Shown in pieces: positions 41,137-60,357 of a stretch of 64,000 nt of DNA. The stretch is from Krasilnikoviella flava (GTDB lineage: Bacteria > Actinomycetota > Actinomycetes > Actinomycetales > Cellulomonadaceae), in the NCBI RefSeq assembly GCF_900167525.1, contig NZ_FUZQ01000007.1, forward strand, positions 186,001 to 250,000. Direction: 5' to 3'. The notes under the pieces were generated by a model that was given only the letters and a program-made list of their open reading frames with translations, did not search any database and was not told the DNA's origin. Made by a program: the position numbers and the translations under genes. The number at the start of each line of letters is the position of its first letter. The stretch's first letter is position 1.

Positions 41137-42288
41137 TCAGCCGCGAAGCGCAGGCTCGCCGCGGTGCGTCGGCTCGCCGCGGTGCGCGGGCTCGCCGCGG
41201 TGGGCGGCGCGCTCGAGCGCCTCGTCGCGCGCGGCCTCGGCGTCGGGCTCGGCGCCGCCGGCGGTGCGCAGATGCCCGACGAGCGACAGCGCGACGCCCA
41301 CCGTGGCCCAGGCCCCGAGGGCGAGCCAGGCCTGTGCGGCGTCGGCGGCCGGGAAGTAGGAGAGGTCGCGCAGCAGGGTGGCGCCCGCGCCGGGCGGGAA
41401 CCACTGGCCGATCGCGCCCCAGTGCCACGGGAGGAACTCCGGCGGCACGGTGGCGCCCGAGATCGGGTTGGCGACCAGCATCATCGTCACCGCGCCGAGC
41501 GCGATCCCGGCGCGGCCCAGCAGGGCCACCAGACCGGTGATGGGGGCGGCGACGGCGGCGAGCGCGAGCGCGGCGCCCCCGGCGTTGGTCCACCAGTCGC
41601 CCTGCAGCGCCCCGAACCATGACTGCAGCACGGCGACGAGGACGACGCCGCCCGCGGCGGCGTAGACGGTGACGGCCAGCACGCGGCGCAGTGCCCCCAC
41701 CACGAGGAGTGAGATGCCGACGCCGCCGACGATCCCGCCGAGGACCAGGGGGAACAGGGCGGCCGCGAGGCCGGTGCCGCGCGGGTCGTCGGCGGACAGA
41801 GGGACGACGTCGGTCACCGTGACGGTGGGCGGCTCCGCCGGGTCGCCCGCGGCCTGCGCCTGCTGGGCGAGCCCGGCCTGCAGCTGCCCTGCGGCCGCGG
41901 TGAGGAGCTGGTGCGTGGCGCTGTTCGCGGCCGAGGCGGTGAGCACCTCGGGCGCTTCGCCGAGCACGATCGCGCCGTAGGCGTCGCGGGCCTCGATCGC
42001 GCCGACCGCGGCGTCTCGGGAGTCGACGGGGACGAGGTCCACGACGCCGGGTTGCGCCGCTTCGAGCGACGTCTCGAGGCCGGCCACCGCCTGGTCCGGG
42101 CCGACGACCGCGACGGGGACGTCCTTCGGCTCGGCCGTGACGGCGGGCCAGGAGAAGGCGAGCACGAGGACACCGACGACGGCGGCGACGCCGAGGGCCA
42201 GGGCGACGACGCGGCCCCACGGCGTGTGCGGTGCGGGGCGCTCGACGGGGCGGGGGACGGGGTCGGTGGTCTCCGTGGGGGAGGGCAT
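41137..42288 (-). CDS. ABC-2/YhgE-Pip-like membrane protein
   Basis: 383 aa: cytoplasmic N-terminus, one TM (about 28-50), a large extracytoplasmic domain to about residue 205, then five to six TM segments, a topology shared with YhgE/Pip and ABC-2 permeases of export systems. The C-terminus carries HRGEP repeats. No ATPase is encoded next to it. Divergent TetR gene shares a palindromic operator, so it is probably a regulated efflux or envelope component. Confidence 0.8.
   Translation of the reverse strand: MPSPTETTDPVPRPVERPAPHTPWGRVVALALGVAAVVGVLVLAFSWPAVTAEPKDVPVAVVGPDQAVAGLETSLEAAQPGVVDLVPVDSRDAAVGAIEARDAYGAIVLGEAPEVLTASAANSATHQLLTAAAGQLQAGLAQQAQAAGDPAEPPTVTVTDVVPLSADDPRGTGLAAALFPLVLGGIVGGVGISLLVVGALRRVLAVTVYAAAGGVVLVAVLQSWFGALQGDWWTNAGGAALALAAVAAPITGLVALLGRAGIALGAVTMMLVANPISGATVPPEFLPWHWGAIGQWFPPGAGATLLRDLSYFPAADAAQAWLALGAWATVGVALSLVGHLRTAGGAEPDAEAARDEALERAAHRGEPAHRGEPTHRGEPALRG
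41153..41206 (-). repeat. Tandem 18-base repeat at the C-terminus
   Basis: Three copies of an 18-base unit (41153-41170, 41171-41188, 41189-41206) on the coding strand of the membrane protein, encoding HRGEP-containing hexapeptides. In frame, so copy number can vary. Confidence 0.85.
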
Positions 42289-42313
42289 GGCATGCTCCGA
42301 GGTCGAATCAAAA

Positions 42314-42327
42314 AACGAATGTTCGTT
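42314..42327. promoter_or_regulatory. Candidate TetR operator
   Basis: AACGAA-TG-TTCGTT sits between the divergent TetR gene and the membrane-protein gene, in an AT-rich patch unusual for this genome. On the reverse strand TATATA (42330-42335) and on the forward strand TAGACT (42354-42359) are the likely -10 elements flanking it. Confidence 0.65.
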
Positions 42328-42396
42328 CTTTATATAGAGTCCTCTCGGGTCCCTAGACTTGTCAACCGTCCGTCCGTGCCCTCGGGAAGGGGTCTC

Positions 42397-42990
42397 ATGC
42401 CGCGAGTGACCGAGGCGCACCGCGAGGCGCGCCGCGCACAGATCCGGGCGGCCGCCCTGCGGGCGTTCTCCGCCAAGGGCTACCAGCGGGCCTCCATCTC
42501 CGACGTCGTCGCCGAGTCGGGGCTGTCCGCGGGCGCGATCTACGGCCACTACGACGGCAAGCAGGCGCTCTTCGCCGCGGTCGCCGAGGAGGTGCTCTCC
42601 CGGCGCAGCACGGAGATCGACGCCGCCGGCGGAGACGGCGTCCCGCCGTCGCCGATCGAGGTCCTCACGATCCTCACAGGCGGCATGACCCGAGACCTCG
42701 AGGACGGCAAGGTGCTCGTGCAGCTCTGGGCGGAGTCCACGGTGGACCCGGTGATCCACGACGTCGTCCAACACGTCGTCGTGGACCTGAGGAACGTCCT
42801 GACCGCTGCGCTGCAGGCGTGGTTCGGGGCGCGACCCGACGTGGCGCCCGACGGGCCCGACGCTGCGGCGCGGTTGCTGCTCCCCGTGATGCTGGGGCTC
42901 GGCCAGGGCTTCCTCGTGCAGCGGGCCCTGCTCGACGACTTCGACGGCGCGCGCTACCTCGAGGCCGCCGCGGCGGTGCTGCCCTCCTGA
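42397..42990 (+). CDS. TetR family transcriptional regulator
   Basis: 197 aa. N-terminal HTH: IRAAALRAFSAKGYQRASIS, VVAESGLSAGAIYGHYDGKQALF. Ligand-binding C-terminus without a specific signature. GGGAAGGGG precedes the ATG. Likely represses itself and the divergent exporter-like gene through the shared palindrome. Confidence 0.92.
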   Translation: MPRVTEAHREARRAQIRAAALRAFSAKGYQRASISDVVAESGLSAGAIYGHYDGKQALFAAVAEEVLSRRSTEIDAAGGDGVPPSPIEVLTILTGGMTRDLEDGKVLVQLWAESTVDPVIHDVVQHVVVDLRNVLTAALQAWFGARPDVAPDGPDAAARLLLPVMLGLGQGFLVQRALLDDFDGARYLEAAAAVLPS

Positions 42991-53824: not shown

Positions 53825-55711
53825 TCAGAGGGCGATGCCGTGGCCGAACCTGAACAGCGGGGCGGCAGTGTCGAACGGGACGTCCTCGCGGGACGCCTCC
53901 ACGGCGGCCGTCGACCGCGGCAGGTCGAACGGCAGCCTGCCCTCGGGCGGCACGGAGCCGGTGAGCGCGTCGAGCAGCGCCGGCGTGGAGGCGCCGAAGT
54001 TCACGACCAGCGAACCGCGCTCGCCCAGCGCCTCGAGCACCGGGGCGAGGATCGCCGGCCGGTCGAGGTAGACGTCGACCACGGTCGGCACCTGCGCCGC
54101 GACCTCCGCCACGTGCGCGACGACGTCCGCCGGGAAGTCGAGCGAGCCGGCGTGGAAGAAGCCCTCGAAGCCGGGGCCACGCTCCTCGTACGGCGCCTTG
54201 AGACGCAGCAGCGCGACGTCGGCCTCGGCGGGAGAGGCGACGACGGTGGTGCCCGCCGGGCCGGAGGCGCCGTCGTCGATGTCCCCCGCGCCCTCGACGT
54301 AGACCCGCGTGCCGGCGGCCAGGGGGAGGCGCGCCGCGCCGGCGGCGGCCGCGGCGAGGAGCGTCACGGACCGGGACTGGGCCCGGCGCCCGGCCGCGAC
54401 GAGCTCGGCCTGCCCGACGACCGACTCCGCGGTGTCGGCGTCGACGTAGCGGGCGTCGTCGAACAGGCCGAGCTCGAACTTCTCGGCCAGCAGGCGGGCG
54501 ACGGACTCGTCGACCCGGGCCTCGGTGACGCGCCCCGCGCGCACCAGCTCCACCACGAGCTCGGGGCACGCCTCACCGCCGAGCTGGTCGGCTCCGGCCG
54601 CGAGGATCTTCTCCAGGCGGTCGGCCGGCGCGAGGTGCTCGACGCCCCAGGCGCGGGCCGGGAACGGCTGTCCCAGGATCTCGGCGTCCGACACCAGGCC
54701 CCAGTCGGTGCACACGATCCCGTCGAAGCCGAGCTCCCCTCGCAGCAGGCGGGTGAGGATCTGCCGGTTGAACCCGAAGCCGACCTGCTCCACCTGCTCG
54801 GGGCCGTCGCCGAGGTCGGTCTCGAGCCCCACGGGCATGCCGTAGTACGGCATCATCTGCCGGGTGCCGGCGGCCAGCAGCGCCTTGAACGGCTCCAGGT
54901 GCTCGGCGAAGCGGCCGCCCGGGTACACCTGCTCGCGGCCGTAGGCGAAGTGGGGGTCCTCCCCGTCGGCCTGTGGTCCGCCGCCCGGGAAATGCTTGGT
55001 CATGGTCGACACGGAGCGCTCGCCGAACGTGCCGGGCAGCCCTGCCTCGCGGGCGACGTCGCCCGTGGCCTGGAAGCCGCGCACGTACGCGGCGCCCATC
55101 CGGCCGGTGAGCTCCGCGTCCTCGCCGAAGGTGCCGTTGGCGCGCGCCCAGCGCGGCTCGGTCGCCAGGTCGACCTGCGGGTGCAGCGCGGTGCGGATGC
55201 CGACCGCGAGGTACTCGCGCCGCGCGGCGTCGGCGTGCTCCTCGACCAGGCGCTCGTCGCGCGTAGCGGCGAGGCCGAGCGTCTCCGGCCACTGCGAGAA
55301 CGGTCCCGACAGCAGGGCGGTGCCGGGGTTGTCGGTGAACGCGTGCCGCGGGTCGGTGGACACCGTGACCGGGATGCCGAGCCGGGTGGACGCCGCGAGC
55401 TCCTGCAACCGGTTGTGCCAGAGCGCGAGCTCCCGGGCGGTGGGCGGTGCCGTGAGGACGTTGACGTGCGTCATCTGCCGCTTCACGACCAGGTCGGTGG
55501 TGGCGGGCACGCCCATCGCGGACGGGCCCTCGGACAGCGCGCCGCCGTCGCCCACCTCGATCATGGTCTGGAAGAGCTGGCCGGCCTTCTCCTCGAGGGT
55601 CATGCGTCCGAGCAGGTCGGCGACGCGCTCGGCGACGGGGCGCGACGCGTCCCGGTACGGGGCGTCGACGGGCACAGGGGGCGCGTCGGTCGGGGTGGTC
55701 GCGTGGCTCAT
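53825..55711 (-). CDS. Beta-glucosidase-type glycoside hydrolase, family GH3
   Basis: 628 aa, cytosolic (no signal peptide). GH3 N-terminal domain with KHFPGGGPQADGEDPHFAY and the nucleophile Asp336 in GFDGIVCTDWG, then a C-terminal alpha/beta domain; no fibronectin-III module. Substrate probably short beta-glucosides. Start ATG at 55711 shares one base with the MFS stop (TGATG), so it is translated with the sugar-type MFS under the TetR operator. Confidence 0.93.
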   Translation of the reverse strand: MSHATTPTDAPPVPVDAPYRDASRPVAERVADLLGRMTLEEKAGQLFQTMIEVGDGGALSEGPSAMGVPATTDLVVKRQMTHVNVLTAPPTARELALWHNRLQELAASTRLGIPVTVSTDPRHAFTDNPGTALLSGPFSQWPETLGLAATRDERLVEEHADAARREYLAVGIRTALHPQVDLATEPRWARANGTFGEDAELTGRMGAAYVRGFQATGDVAREAGLPGTFGERSVSTMTKHFPGGGPQADGEDPHFAYGREQVYPGGRFAEHLEPFKALLAAGTRQMMPYYGMPVGLETDLGDGPEQVEQVGFGFNRQILTRLLRGELGFDGIVCTDWGLVSDAEILGQPFPARAWGVEHLAPADRLEKILAAGADQLGGEACPELVVELVRAGRVTEARVDESVARLLAEKFELGLFDDARYVDADTAESVVGQAELVAAGRRAQSRSVTLLAAAAAGAARLPLAAGTRVYVEGAGDIDDGASGPAGTTVVASPAEADVALLRLKAPYEERGPGFEGFFHAGSLDFPADVVAHVAEVAAQVPTVVDVYLDRPAILAPVLEALGERGSLVVNFGASTPALLDALTGSVPPEGRLPFDLPRSTAAVEASREDVPFDTAAPLFRFGHGIAL

Positions 55712-57021
55712 CAGCGGGCTCCTCGGATGAACAGGGTGGCCACGGCGCCGAGGGCGACGACGACCGCGGAGACGGCGAACAGCGCGGTGTAGTTGTTGCC
55801 GCCGGCGCCGACGGCGAGGAACACCGGGGCGAGGGCCGGGGCCACGGACTGCGGCAGGGCGTTGGCGATGTTGAACACGCCCATGTTCTTGGCCGCCTCG
55901 GTCTCCGCGTTCGGCAGCACGTCGGTGACGAGCGCGAGGTCGACGGCGAAGTAGGCGCCGAGTCCGGCGCCGAACAGCAACGCACCGAGGTAGAGCATCC
56001 CCGGGCCCTGGACGAGGGCGAACGTCAGCAGGCCGGCGCCGGCGAGCAGGGTGGCGACGACGACGAAGATCTTGCGGCGCCCCGTGCGGTCGGACAGCAC
56101 GCCGCCGATGAGGGACGCGACGACCATGACCGCGGCCTGCACGACCATGAGCCGCAGCTGCCAGCTCAGCGCGGTGGCGTCGTCGAAGCCGAACCGGTCG
56201 ATGAGGAAGTACAGCTGGTAGGTGTTGTAGAGCGCGAAGCCGAACAGCATGAGGAAGCGGCCCAGGAAGGTCCACGCGAAGTCGGGGTGCCGGCGGGGCG
56301 AGACCCAGAAGCCCTTGAGGAAGGCGCCGAGGTGGAACGGGGCGACGTCGGCGGGGTCGAGCCGGCGGTCCTTGAGGACGGCGACGAGGGCGAGCACGCC
56401 GACGACGGCGAGCAACGTGGGGACCACGAAGATCCAGATCTCGTTCGCGCCCGCGGCGGTGAACCCGAAGGCGAGCGCGATGCCGACCAGGGGCGCGAGC
56501 TGCTGGGCCATGCCGAGAAGGCTGGAGACGCGGGCGCGCTGGGACTCGGCGACCTGGTCGGGCAGCAGCGCCTGGAGCGCGGCCTGGGTGCCGTTCATCG
56601 CGGCCTGCGTGACGGCCCACCCGATCACGACGACCCAGATCGACGGGGCGAACGCGATGAGCAGCAGGCCCACGGCGCCGAGGAGCACGCCCCACAGCAG
56701 CCAGGGCCGCCGCATGCCGAGCCGGGAGGTGGTGCGGTCGGACAGGGCGCCCGCGACCGGGTTGGCCACGAACGCGAAGAACGCGCCGACGCCGGTCACG
56801 ACCGCGAGGTTGGCGGCTCGCGTCTCCGGGGTGGACAGGGCGTCGACCTTGAGCGCCAGCGTGCTGACCACGGGCGTGAGCACCGCGATGTACAGCGCGA
56901 AGAACGCGAGGACGTAGGCGACGACCGTCCCCGTGCCGGCGGGCGCCCGGCCGGCGTCGGGCGGGTGGTGCGGGGACGCGGGGGACCGGTCGGCCGTTGC
57001 GAGGGCCTGAACGTCTGCCAT
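55711..57021 (-). CDS. MFS sugar transporter (GPH/SLC45-like)
   Basis: 436 aa, 12 TM segments. The TM2-3 motif NPVAGALSDRTTSRLGMRRPWLLWG is characteristic of GPH and sucrose-type cation symporters rather than drug exporters; it probably imports a beta-glucoside cleaved by the coupled GH3 enzyme. AGGAG precedes the ATG. Divergent TetR, with two tandem operator candidates in the gap. Confidence 0.9.
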   Translation of the reverse strand: MADVQALATADRSPASPHHPPDAGRAPAGTGTVVAYVLAFFALYIAVLTPVVSTLALKVDALSTPETRAANLAVVTGVGAFFAFVANPVAGALSDRTTSRLGMRRPWLLWGVLLGAVGLLLIAFAPSIWVVVIGWAVTQAAMNGTQAALQALLPDQVAESQRARVSSLLGMAQQLAPLVGIALAFGFTAAGANEIWIFVVPTLLAVVGVLALVAVLKDRRLDPADVAPFHLGAFLKGFWVSPRRHPDFAWTFLGRFLMLFGFALYNTYQLYFLIDRFGFDDATALSWQLRLMVVQAAVMVVASLIGGVLSDRTGRRKIFVVVATLLAGAGLLTFALVQGPGMLYLGALLFGAGLGAYFAVDLALVTDVLPNAETEAAKNMGVFNIANALPQSVAPALAPVFLAVGAGGNNYTALFAVSAVVVALGAVATLFIRGAR

Positions 57022-57075
57022 GACGACTCCTGATTCTCTGCCGGGACCACCGTCGGACCCGTGCGGCGACCAATG

Positions 57076-57091
57076 CTTACCAGCCGGTCGG
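57076..57091. promoter_or_regulatory. Weaker TetR operator copy
   Basis: CTTACCAGCCGGTCGG matches nine of the eleven positions shared by the two better sites and is offset by 24 bases from the one at 57100. It could allow cooperative binding at the divergent promoter. Confidence 0.4.
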
Positions 57092-57099
57092 AAATGAAG

Positions 57100-57115
57100 G
57101 TTACCGCATGGTAGG
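57100..57115. promoter_or_regulatory. TetR operator, MFS-GH3 / tetR divergent promoter
   Basis: GTTACCGCATGGTAGG: TACC and GGTA arms around GCAT, in the 178-base gap between tetR and the MFS gene. It shares TACCG-N3-GGTAGG with the palindrome upstream of the second GH3 gene. Confidence 0.65.
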
Positions 57116-57199
57116 TATTGGAGCCAAGGGGCCTGCTGAGCGGCGCGCGGGTGAGCCGTCCCGTCGGACGAAGGGGAGGAACGAGGGGAGAATGGCGGC

Positions 57200-57841
57200 G
57201 TGAGCGACGCGACGATCGAGGACGAGGCCCCGCCCCGGCGGGGGTATGCCAAGGGGCGGGCCAAGCGCGAGGAGATCCTGCAGGCGGCGATCGTCACGTT
57301 CGCCGAGGTCGGCTATCACGGCGCGTCGTTGCGCGAGATCGCGGCGCGCGTCGGTATCTCGCACCCCGGGCTGCTGCACCACTTCCCGACGAAGGCGGCG
57401 CTGCTCGAGGCGGTGCTGGAGCACCGGGACGCCGTCGACTTCGCCGACGTCGACACCGACCTCGCGCAGGGGCGCTCGCTGTTCGAGGCGATCGTGCGGC
57501 TCGTGGAGCGCAACGCGCTGCGGCGGCCCGTCGTCGAGGTCTTCGCGGGCCTCGCGGCTGAGGCGACGTCGGTCGAGCACCCGGCGCACGACTTCTTCGC
57601 GGCCCGGTACCGGGACACGGTGTCCCGCATGCGCACCGAGCTGGCGCGGCTCGACGGCGCCGGTCGGCTCCGGCCGGGGGTCGATGCCGCCGTGGCAGCG
57701 CGCACGCTCGTCGCGCTCATGGACGGCCTGCAGGTCCAGTGGCTCTACTCGCTCGAGCTCCCGCGAGCCGACCGCGTCGACATGGCCGCGGACCTCCGGG
57801 CGTACCTCGGCCTGATCCTCGTGGACCCCGACGCCGGCTGA
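57200..57841 (+). CDS. TetR family regulator of the GH3 locus
   Basis: 213 aa. HTH: EILQAAIVTFAEVGYHGASLREIAARVGISHPGLLHHF. C-terminal all-helical ligand-binding domain (FFAARYRDTVSRMRTELARL; LMDGLQVQWLYSLELPR). Lies between two GH3 genes and divergent from MFS-GH3, so it is the likely repressor responding to a glucoside. GTG start; GAGAAT is 6 bases upstream, and GGGGAG also fits an SD, so leaderless status is unclear. Confidence 0.92.
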   Translation: MSDATIEDEAPPRRGYAKGRAKREEILQAAIVTFAEVGYHGASLREIAARVGISHPGLLHHFPTKAALLEAVLEHRDAVDFADVDTDLAQGRSLFEAIVRLVERNALRRPVVEVFAGLAAEATSVEHPAHDFFAARYRDTVSRMRTELARLDGAGRLRPGVDAAVAARTLVALMDGLQVQWLYSLELPRADRVDMAADLRAYLGLILVDPDAG

Positions 57842-57861
57842 GCCTGGTGTCCCCGCCCGCC

Positions 57862-57910
57862 GGTCGAGCCCGTCGAGACCCGGATCGACCGGGTCCCGGC
57901 CGGCTCGACC
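57862..57910. terminator. Imperfect inverted repeat between convergent genes
   Basis: Two 22-base arms (57862-57883, 57889-57910) with three mismatches and a 5-base loop, between tetR and the second GH3 gene. Same family as the perfect repeat at 50630-50675; bidirectional terminator likely. Confidence 0.6.
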
Positions 57911-57925
57911 GGTCGGACAACGAGG

Positions 57926-60238
57926 TCAGCCGTTCGCGGCCTCGACGAGCTCGGCCAGGGCGCTCCGGTCGAAGCCGGCCAGGCCGAAGTCGGCGATGAC
58001 CGCGAGCGGCATGTCGGTGGCCATGGCCAGCATGCCCGGGTCGATCGGGGCGCCGTCGAGGGCGCTGCGGACGACCGGCCCCGCGACCGGGTGCTCCAGC
58101 GCCTCGCCGAGCGTCGACAGCTCGTGCAGGGGCAGGGTGACGTCCTCGCCGGTGACGTCGACGGTCAGCTCGGCGCGCAGGTCGCGGGACGACGCGCCGA
58201 CGGCGACGCGGAACTCGCCGCCCTCGAGCACCCAGCGGCGCAGCACGGGGTGCCAGTACGACAGGTCGCGGGCATCGAGGTCCACCGTGACGACCTGCGA
58301 CGCGCCGGGCTCGAGGTGCACCTTGGCGAACGCCTTGAGCTCGCGCTCCGGCCGCTGCACCTGGGCCTGCGGGTCGCCGACGTACACCTGGACGACCTCG
58401 GCGCCCGCCACGGCACCGGTGTTCGTCACGCGCACTGCGACGTGCACCCGGGCGTCGGCCCCCGCTCCGGAGACCTCGGCCGTGGCGTCGTCGTACGCGA
58501 AGGTGGTGTACGACAGCCCGTGCCCGAACGGGTACGCGACGTCGACCCGGCGCGCGTCGTACCAGCGGTAGCCCACCAGCACGCCCTCGCCGTAGCGGAC
58601 GTGCCCGAGCTCGCCGGGGAAGTTCCCGTAGGCCGGGGTGTCCTCGAGGCGCAGCGGCAGCGTCTCGGTGAGCTTGCCCGACGGCGTGACGACGCCCGTG
58701 AGGACGTCGGCGACGGCGGAGCCGCCGGCCTGGCCGCCGAGCCAGCCGGTGAGCAGCGCGGGCGCCGCGTCCTGCCACGCCGACACGGAGATCGCGGAGC
58801 CGCCGGCGAGCACCACGACGAGGCGCGGGTTCACCGCCGCGAGGGCGTGCAGCAGGGCGACCTGGTCGGCCGGCAGGTCGAGGTGCTCGCGGTCGTAGCC
58901 CTCCGACTCGTACGCCGCGGGCAGCCCGAGGAACACCAGCACGGTCCCGGCGCCGCGCGCGGTCTCGACGGCCTCGGCCGCCAGGGCCTCGGCGGGGCGG
59001 TCGTCGGCCGGGCCCTCGGCGAGGCCGTAGCCGGGGGCGAAGGGGACATCGGTGCCGGCGGCCGCGCGCAGCGCGGTGAGCGCGTCGTCGAGCCGGGTCG
59101 GGTTGACCTGCGACGACCCGGCCCCCTGGTAGCGCGGCGTGCGGGCGAGCTCGCCGATCACGACGACGTCGGCCGTGTCGGCCAGGGGCAGCAGCGGCGC
59201 GCCGTCGAGGGGGGCGTTCTTCAGCAGGACGGTGCCCGCGGCGGCGGCCTCGCGGGCCAGCGCGTGGTGGGCATCGACGTCGAACGTGCCCGGGGCGCCC
59301 AGCGCCGGGAGGGACCGCGCCACGAGGTGCAGCACGCGCCGGGCGGCGGCGTCGACCACCGCGTCGTCGAGCGCGCCGGCGCGGACCGCGGCGACGACCT
59401 CGGCGTCCGTGCGGCCGCCGGAGGACGGCATCTCGAGGTCCAGCCCCGCCGCCACGCCGGCGACGCGGTCGCGCACCGCGCCCCAGTCGGAGACGACGAG
59501 GCCCTCGAAGCCCCACTCGTCGCGCAGCACGGTGGTCAGGAGCCAGTCGTGCTGCGAGGCGTAGACCCCGTTGATCTTGTTGTACGCGCACATCACGGTC
59601 CAGGGCTGCGCCTTCGTGACGACGCGCTCGAAGGCCGGCAGGTAGATCTCCCGCAGCGTGCGCTCGTCGACGTCGGCCGACACGCGCATCCGGTCCGCCT
59701 CCTGGTTGTTCGCGGCGAAGTGCTTGAGCGACGTGCCGACACCGAGGGACTGGATGCCCTCGACGAGCGCCGTGGCCAGCTCGCCGGCGACCACCGGATC
59801 CTCGGAGAAGTACTCGAAGTTGCGCCCGCACAACGGCGACCGCTTGATGTTCACGCCCGGGCCGAGCAGGACGGCCACGTCGTTCGCGCGGGTCTCGCGC
59901 CCCAGGGCCGCGCCGACCCGGCGCAGCAGGTCGGTGTCCCAGCTGGACCCGAGCGCGGCGGCCGTGGGGAAGCAGGTGGCGGGCACGCTGTTGCCGATCC
60001 CCAGGTGGTCGGCGCTCTCGGCCTGCTTGCGCAGGCCGTGCGGCCCGTCGGTGACCATGACCGAGGGGACGACGGTCTCGCCGTCGCGCTCGACCGGCTG
60101 GGTGTGCCAGAAGTCGAGGCCGGAGAGCAGGGAGGCCTTCTCCTCGAGGGTGAGCGAGGCGAGCACCCGTTCGACGTCGAACGGCTGCTCGGGGGTGCTG
60201 TCCGCGACGGCGGCGGGCAGGGTCTGGTCGAGGGTCAC
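57926..60238 (-). CDS. Beta-glucosidase, family GH3
   Basis: 770 aa, no signal peptide. Classic GH3: MVTDGPHGLR, KHFAANNQE, nucleophile Asp251 in GLVVSDWGAV, then the alpha/beta sandwich and a C-terminal fibronectin-III-like domain (about 585-690, DLSYWHPVLRRWVLEGGEF). Resembles broad beta-glucosidases/xylosidases. GTG start with GGAGCG. A perfect 7-bp-arm palindrome of the TetR type lies 52 bases upstream of the start, overlapping the -35 position of a TACGCT -10 (complement of 60276-60281). Confidence 0.95.
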   Translation of the reverse strand: MTLDQTLPAAVADSTPEQPFDVERVLASLTLEEKASLLSGLDFWHTQPVERDGETVVPSVMVTDGPHGLRKQAESADHLGIGNSVPATCFPTAAALGSSWDTDLLRRVGAALGRETRANDVAVLLGPGVNIKRSPLCGRNFEYFSEDPVVAGELATALVEGIQSLGVGTSLKHFAANNQEADRMRVSADVDERTLREIYLPAFERVVTKAQPWTVMCAYNKINGVYASQHDWLLTTVLRDEWGFEGLVVSDWGAVRDRVAGVAAGLDLEMPSSGGRTDAEVVAAVRAGALDDAVVDAAARRVLHLVARSLPALGAPGTFDVDAHHALAREAAAAGTVLLKNAPLDGAPLLPLADTADVVVIGELARTPRYQGAGSSQVNPTRLDDALTALRAAAGTDVPFAPGYGLAEGPADDRPAEALAAEAVETARGAGTVLVFLGLPAAYESEGYDREHLDLPADQVALLHALAAVNPRLVVVLAGGSAISVSAWQDAAPALLTGWLGGQAGGSAVADVLTGVVTPSGKLTETLPLRLEDTPAYGNFPGELGHVRYGEGVLVGYRWYDARRVDVAYPFGHGLSYTTFAYDDATAEVSGAGADARVHVAVRVTNTGAVAGAEVVQVYVGDPQAQVQRPERELKAFAKVHLEPGASQVVTVDLDARDLSYWHPVLRRWVLEGGEFRVAVGASSRDLRAELTVDVTGEDVTLPLHELSTLGEALEHPVAGPVVRSALDGAPIDPGMLAMATDMPLAVIADFGLAGFDRSALAELVEAANG

Positions 60239-60289
60239 GGGGCGCTCCAGGGGTCGGCGACGGTGCAACCCGAGCAGCGTAGCAAGAAA

Positions 60290-60305
60290 CCTACCGTGCG
60301 GTAGG
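60290..60305. promoter_or_regulatory. TetR operator upstream of the second GH3 gene
   Basis: CCTACCG-TG-CGGTAGG, perfect 7-bp arms, nine bases upstream of the -10 TACGCT. Shares its core with the operator at 57100-57115, so the TetR at 57.2 kb probably controls this gene too. Confidence 0.7.
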
Positions 60306-60357
60306 GAAAATCGCCGCGAACGACGGCGGGCGGGCGCCCTCGGCCGGCGTGCGCCCG

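Follow-up and report, generated by a model that had tools for sequence, protein, structure and literature searches.

A BgrT-type TetR regulator and a shared palindromic operator predicted to control an importer and two GH3 genes in Krasilnikoviella flava

The stretch of the Krasilnikoviella flava genome analyzed here (the window; 64,000 nucleotides, contig NZ_FUZQ01000007.1, positions 186,001 to 250,000) holds at 53825-60305 a contiguous gene cluster, GH3b-MFS / tetR / GH3a, which we propose to be a beta-glucoside-type regulon under a single TetR-family repressor. The layout was read from the list of open reading frames (ORFs) and a Pfam search of the window. tetR (57200..57841, plus strand; 213 aa; TetR_N, 58.4 bits) runs rightward, and an operon of two genes diverges leftward from the same intergenic region. 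Its first gene encodes a major facilitator superfamily (MFS) importer of 436 aa (55711..57021, minus strand), and its second, GH3b (53825..55711, minus strand), a compact glycosidase of 628 aa from glycoside hydrolase family 3 (GH3); the two genes overlap at the stop codon of MFS and the start codon of GH3b. GH3a (57926..60238, minus strand), encoding a beta-glucosidase-like GH3 protein of 770 aa, is convergent to tetR and has its own upstream promoter region, which lies separately after a GNAT gene that precedes it on the same strand. A stem-loop with a T-rich tail at 60312-60328, between the GNAT gene and the operator of GH3a, is a candidate terminator parting these two genes.

The motif TACCG-N3-GGTAGG occurs without mismatch at only two places in the window, 57102-57115 and 60290-60305. 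The first lies within the 16-mer GTTACCGCATGGTAGG (57100..57115) between tetR and MFS, a strong operator identified by a motif scan of the window and by comparison of loci, and a weaker copy, CTTACCAGCCGGTCGG (57076..57091), sits 24 bp from it, forming a tandem pair. Both sites are as described in an earlier note on this DNA, made from the sequence alone, which had placed the strong site at 57100-57115 and a weaker tandem copy at 57076. The second place holds the best operator, CCTACCGTGCGGTAGG (60290..60305), 51 bp before GH3a; the note had called it a perfect palindrome, which is true of its two 7-bp arms but not of the 2-bp centre, which is not self-complementary. The same note had spoken of a "two-locus" regulon: the same site is indeed present at two promoters, but the genes form one contiguous cluster.

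The site is conserved upstream of tetR in related loci. A site was counted when it matched at least 7 of 8 core and at least 9 of 12 positions within 300 bp upstream, a criterion fixed before the named loci were fetched. The best-ranked 30 named loci, whose TetRs are 50-71% identical to that of the window, were reduced to 26 by leaving out three near copies and the locus that is genome G017 itself; in 15 of these 26, the site was found upstream of tetR, compared to a mean of 0.43 and a maximum of 3 in shuffles. Other arrangements of the half-site letters were present in at most 4 of these loci each, as were other spacers between 0 and 10 bp. When the full set of 80 named loci was taken, without L112 and near copies, the site was present in 21/76 (1.04 in shuffles), and for named loci with a TetR identity of at least 50% at any rank, it was present in 17/35 (0.56 in shuffles). 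Two other counts were set aside. When exact 4-mer palindromes upstream of tetR were counted without favoring any word, TACC did not stand out (2 loci versus 0.04), because the half-sites vary (CCTACC/CCGACC), and G/C-rich words dominated. The degenerate pattern CKACC-N4-GGTMRG gave 13/27 versus 0.07 and had been chosen after some of the loci were seen, so the a priori criterion was preferred.

The site also tends to accompany the regulator. A GH3a relative is present in 53 of 58 genomes; 30 loci were given, and 29 were used after G005, located at a contig edge, was dropped. With a close TetR defined as one scoring at least 160 bits and sites counted within 300 bp of GH3a, the site was found in 12 of the 14 genomes having a close TetR and in 3 of the 15 lacking one (Fisher p = 5.5e-4, a generous value since the genomes are related and phylogeny was not corrected for). 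Three genomes have the site and no close TetR. In G029 a TetR of the same branch adjoins the gene (L280), G054 carries a Bifidobacterium BaBgl3-type gene that is 93% identical to BaBgl3, and G056 is unexplained. G004 has kept GH3a (75-78% identical, with the same GNAT neighbor) and has neither a close TetR nor the site, and is thus a natural case of loss. In G002 and G017, the surroundings of the close tetR gave no GH3a (in G002 the contig ends ∼1 kb past the gene, leaving one side unseen), and the site is borne by a GH3a relative (63%) located elsewhere. In G033 and G043, which have a close TetR and no given GH3a locus, the site lies near tetR. Among TetR homologs of at least 100 bits in the 58 genomes, 26/45 have a GH3a-type gene within 6 kb, whereas chance would give ∼0.007 each. 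The operator was further found upstream of BaBgl3-type genes in Bifidobacterium in 19 of the 19 loci readable among the 20 best matches there (one locus was too short), compared to 0.375 by shuffling, although these genomes are close kin. The earlier proposal of one operator common to the tetR/MFS-GH3b and GH3a promoters is supported in silico by the presence of the sites, their conservation across genomes and their tendency to accompany a close TetR. As a separate observation, G020 holds at C34:67100-74000 (L290) a second TetR (33%), which grouped with the bifidobacterial ones in one tree, along with a second MFS gene. The sites there, CTTACCGGGCGGTAGG (69373) and CCTACCGATCGGTAGA (73809), suggest a parallel regulon using the same operator letters.

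The position of the sites relative to the promoters recurs as well. Two sites 23-25 bp apart are present in 7 of the 8 loci, the window included, in which a tetR of at least 50% identity is divergent to MFS, the exception being G027 with none. In a listing of 22 hand-picked sites inspected by eye, a TAnnnT word follows the site after 7-10 bases in 17 of the 18 rows outside the bifidobacterial family, with G020 as the exception. For GH3a of the window, this word is the candidate -10 hexamer TACGCT (60276..60281, minus strand), which reads from 60281 to 60276 and begins 8 bases past the operator. At the usual spacing of 17 bp, the spacer and the -35 region of GH3a would presumably lie under the operator, as expected for a steric repressor. 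A scan with the sigma-70 consensus gave no promoter match and did not recognize TACGCT.

The regulator itself appears to belong to the BgrT group. Its model (predicted local distance difference test score, pLDDT, of 92) shows an ordinary TetR fold in comparison to the PDB. In a tree, the window TetR, six B. adolescentis TetRs and 34 hand-chosen relatives, mostly adjoining GH3 genes, form 41 rows set apart with 100/99 support from 33 other TetRs, namely, four from B. adolescentis and 29 of the other 69 TetR_N matches in the K. flava genome. Genome G153 was taken as B. adolescentis since 212 residues of chain 5wab, which is BaBgl3 from strain ATCC 15703 of that species (PMC6657685), match it at 100%. 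It has ten TetR_N genes, and Table 1 of Khoroshkin et al. 2016 (PMC4746261) gives six of the ten TetRs of this species as sugar linked; the six used here, five at 1486-1511 kb and one at 551 kb, were picked by position and similarity and not by the published locus tags. In that paper, BgrT regulators are TetR-family proteins whose genes neighbor those of beta-glucosidases and MFS transporters, both in bifidobacteria and in further Actinobacteria; BgrT1 to BgrT8 are predicted to regulate beta-glucoside/galactoside genes through palindromic operators of 18-22 nt, with DNA binding and release by glycosides likewise predicted. The window tetR, similarly, adjoins beta-glucosidase-type GH3 genes and an MFS gene, and it shares with BgrT the protein branch. 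A conserved palindrome is present here as well; it was examined as a 16-bp core, and it fits the sites at the bifidobacterial BaBgl3-type promoters, which were compared in place of the published logos. It differs in that it lies outside the sub-branch of the six B. adolescentis TetRs (support 90), in the tandem sites at its importer promoter and in the second, compact GH3b. By branch and genomic company, with a fitting operator, the protein can thus be assigned to BgrT, and it looks like a separate or further ortholog group. K. flava has a second TetR inside the BgrT branch, 36% identical to that of the window (C5:118653-119183, L061), and no relative of GH3a, GH3b or the MFS gene of the cluster was found in the surrounding 14 kb.

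Taken together, we put at roughly 80% the probability that a BgrT-type repressor with shared operators controls the importer and two GH3 genes and is released by a beta-glucoside-type ligand. The repressor would bind CCTACC-N4-GGTAGG-like palindromes at the two promoters of the cluster. Occupation of the tandem pair at the tetR/MFS-GH3b promoter would repress the importer operon and probably tetR too, and occupation of the single near-perfect site over the presumed -35/spacer region would block GH3a. Once a beta-glucoside, or what cleavage or transglycosylation has made of it, enters the cell and occupies the ligand domain, the repressor would leave the DNA, and the importer and both GH3 enzymes could then be made. 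The sites, their conservation, their co-occurrence with the TetR and the family placement were computed; what we infer is that the TetR binds them, that it represses instead of activating, that it regulates its own gene and which compound induces. As predictions, both the common operator and the regulon have good support. The earlier note was right in its likely beta-glucoside regulon, and, as it said itself, glucosides as the inducer are an inference.

Several results weigh against this proposal. The pattern CCTACC-N4-GGTAGG with at most two mismatches is found 177 times in the host genome, compared to 165 for a reversed control, and in six relatives together there are 40 sites with one mismatch or none, compared to 48 for the control; both counts are at background. 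Palindromes of the type TACC-N4-GGTA also lie near other TetR genes and an MFS-like ORF in the host genome, so this sign is not exclusive. The site is absent from 11 of the 26 top-ranked upstream regions, including those of the closest two TetRs (L108 and L109, 71%) and of L111 and L115, and at ranks 31-80 it was found in only 6/50 loci (0.80 in shuffles, with a maximum of 4). G027 has the cluster, and no site was found at its tetR or GH3a; G052 has the cluster with a sub-threshold site only; these two are the exceptions among the 14 GH3a genomes having a close TetR. The TAnnnT word is missing in all four rows of the bifidobacterial family and in G020.

Some of these points have a counterpart. 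Each of the same six relatives has at least one site with at most one mismatch within the orthologous cluster, and the exact core TACCG-N3-GGTA, present at 7 places (10 strand-hits) in the 4.85-Mb genome (8 for a reversed control pattern), has an expectation of ∼0.09 per 64 kb. The genome-wide count that the earlier note had proposed was uninformative, near-perfect sites being no commoner than the control; two of the exact cores fall within 3.2 kb here. Since site counts are at background genome-wide, significance rests on position and conservation and not on number. Two of the 11 loci without the site before tetR (L114 and L125) have it before GH3a instead. The operator belongs to the nearer part of the TetR family and fades with distance. 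In L108, L109, L111 and L115, the TetR is 58-71% identical to that of the window, and neither a GH3/MFS relative nearby nor an upstream site was found; these are either orphan regulators with targets elsewhere or regulators with a changed operator.

The alternative that survives best retains the TetR and its sites and differs in the effector, which would be an alpha-L-arabinopyranoside, a beta-galactoside or a plant aglycone-glycoside (saponin, flavonoid) that is imported and cleaved. We consider this possible, though the less probable choice. Both GH3a (PF00933, PF01915, and PF14310) and GH3b (PF00933, 125.5 bits; PF01915, 34.9 bits) pass the Pfam cut-offs for the GH3 N and C domains, and no evident signal peptide was seen by eye on either. 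The alignments are unbroken around what we take to be the usual GH3 nucleophile in both enzymes and the acid/base motif in GH3a. The top NCBIfam model for GH3a is an exo-alpha-(1->6)-L-arabinopyranosidase (NF041610), which would favor such an effector, but its score of 934 bits is below the cut-off of 1300. The closest solved chains are both named beta-glucosidases: 5wab, BaBgl3 of B. adolescentis, for GH3a (E = 2e-227) and 9ul7, attributed to Clavibacter michiganensis (PMC13021860), for GH3b (E = 2e-189). Beta-galactosides are the predicted sugars of three of the eight BgrT groups, but the commonest bifidobacterial groups, located beside bglX, are predicted for beta-glucosides (PMC4746261). 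The earlier note had called the importer GPH type, a label that is weak: its TIGR00792 score is 39 bits where the cut-off is 231, and it matches MFS_1 (124.3 bits) better than MFS_2 (50.5 bits). It is an MFS protein that is only distantly GPH-like. In G012, G008, G017 and G028, the MFS protein in the same place is only 41-43% identical whereas GH3b is 71-80% identical, and in G010 and G013 the 20 kb around tetR yielded no MFS gene and no ortholog of GH3b. The operator thus outlives what it controls.

The palindromes could also be bound by another of the host's own regulators, drawing the cluster into a wider network of TetR cross-talk, which we regard as improbable. Palindromes lie 65 and 43 bp before the stretches coding for the helix-turn-helix (HTH) of two TetR genes, at C10:85194-85205 (L058) and C7:300029-300044 (L059), respectively, these distances running to the HTH-coding stretch and not to the gene start, and another at C6:441097-441112 (L057) lies 15 bp before an MFS-like ORF with another TetR downstream. 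Operator cross-talk with these three is possible. The C10 and C7 TetRs, however, fall outside the 41-row branch (the C6 one is absent from that tree), and across genomes the GH3a sites tend to follow the close TetR. Of 12 one-mismatch sites in the host genome, 6 are inside ORFs of at least 300 aa with a third-position GC content (GC3) of at least 0.94, a test that is not sharp, as the 60290 site itself overlaps spurious ORFs.

Control by the LacI-type CelR/CebR is established for cellulases in related actinobacteria, and these regulators resemble the proposed one in governing beta-glucosidase genes. On such grounds the GH3 genes might answer to CelR, with the palindrome a by-product, but we find this very unlikely. 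CelR and CebR belong to another family with another operator, the CelR box TGGGAGCGCTCCCA is present at neither promoter, and its 4 matches in the window, one of them inside GH3b (55137), all have 3 mismatches and compare to 7.6 expected; the sites found here are conserved with the TetR. Chance palindromes in a GC-rich genome, which the background number of near-perfect sites might suggest, are hardly credible in view of the position and conservation tests against shuffles.

The design of the cluster has a parallel outside the actinobacteria. The gus system handles glucuronides with a GH2 enzyme. Salmonella GusR (6ayh) is among the sequence matches of the window TetR (41.8 bits, E = 9.9e-10; 25% identity over 191 columns) and, at rank 20, is the sole sugar-linked regulator by name among the 50 structure matches listed; 6ayi is UidR. 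The E. coli gus operon, with GusR, a beta-glucuronidase and the GusB transporter, likewise combines a TetR-type repressor (GusR/UidR-gusABC), a glycoside importer and glycosidase, two operators and a glycoside inducer (PMC9881133). The window enzymes are GH3 rather than GH2, however, and a match of 41.8 bits does not make the window TetR an ortholog of GusR; the likeness seen is one of design. The earlier description of the cluster as unusual is not supported: BgrT, with which the window TetR groups, was described in 2016 (PMC4746261), and gus is older and has the same design. No experimental TetR-GH3 study was found by title in a literature search whose scope mostly did not extend to subscription papers.

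The kind of system is already known, and the cluster adds an example of a regulator family predicted in gut bifidobacteria. What is new is that the operator spans Bifidobacterium, Isoptericola relatives and Streptomyces with the transporters swapped, and that it is steady among nearer relatives. BgrT-type TetRs may tentatively be seen as an old and widespread means of governing the intracellular use of beta-glucosides across Actinobacteria in place of CelR/CebR, with a near-unchanged operator (in Bifidobacterium, Isoptericola relatives, Actinoplanes and Streptomyces), swapped transporters and target loci, and a changed operator in distant members; we hold this at somewhat less than even odds because the more distant loci are mostly without the site. 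If true, a single DNA pattern would reveal the regulons for much of the family. The cluster itself lets the BgrT prediction from ten bifidobacterial genomes be tested independently in actinobacteria that degrade cellulose, and it supplies a defined operator, its geometry to the presumed promoter and the loss case G004. TetR sugar sensing in these bacteria becomes directly testable, and the expectation that their beta-glucosidase genes are simply CelR targets is corrected.

Elsewhere in the window, the ORF around 41713-42987 codes for another TetR. An inverted repeat, AACGAA-TG-TTCGTT, was seen by eye at 42314-42327, between a TetR gene with its ATG at 42397 and, on the opposite strand, a large ORF resembling a membrane protein, and looks like a second TetR-type promoter of the window.

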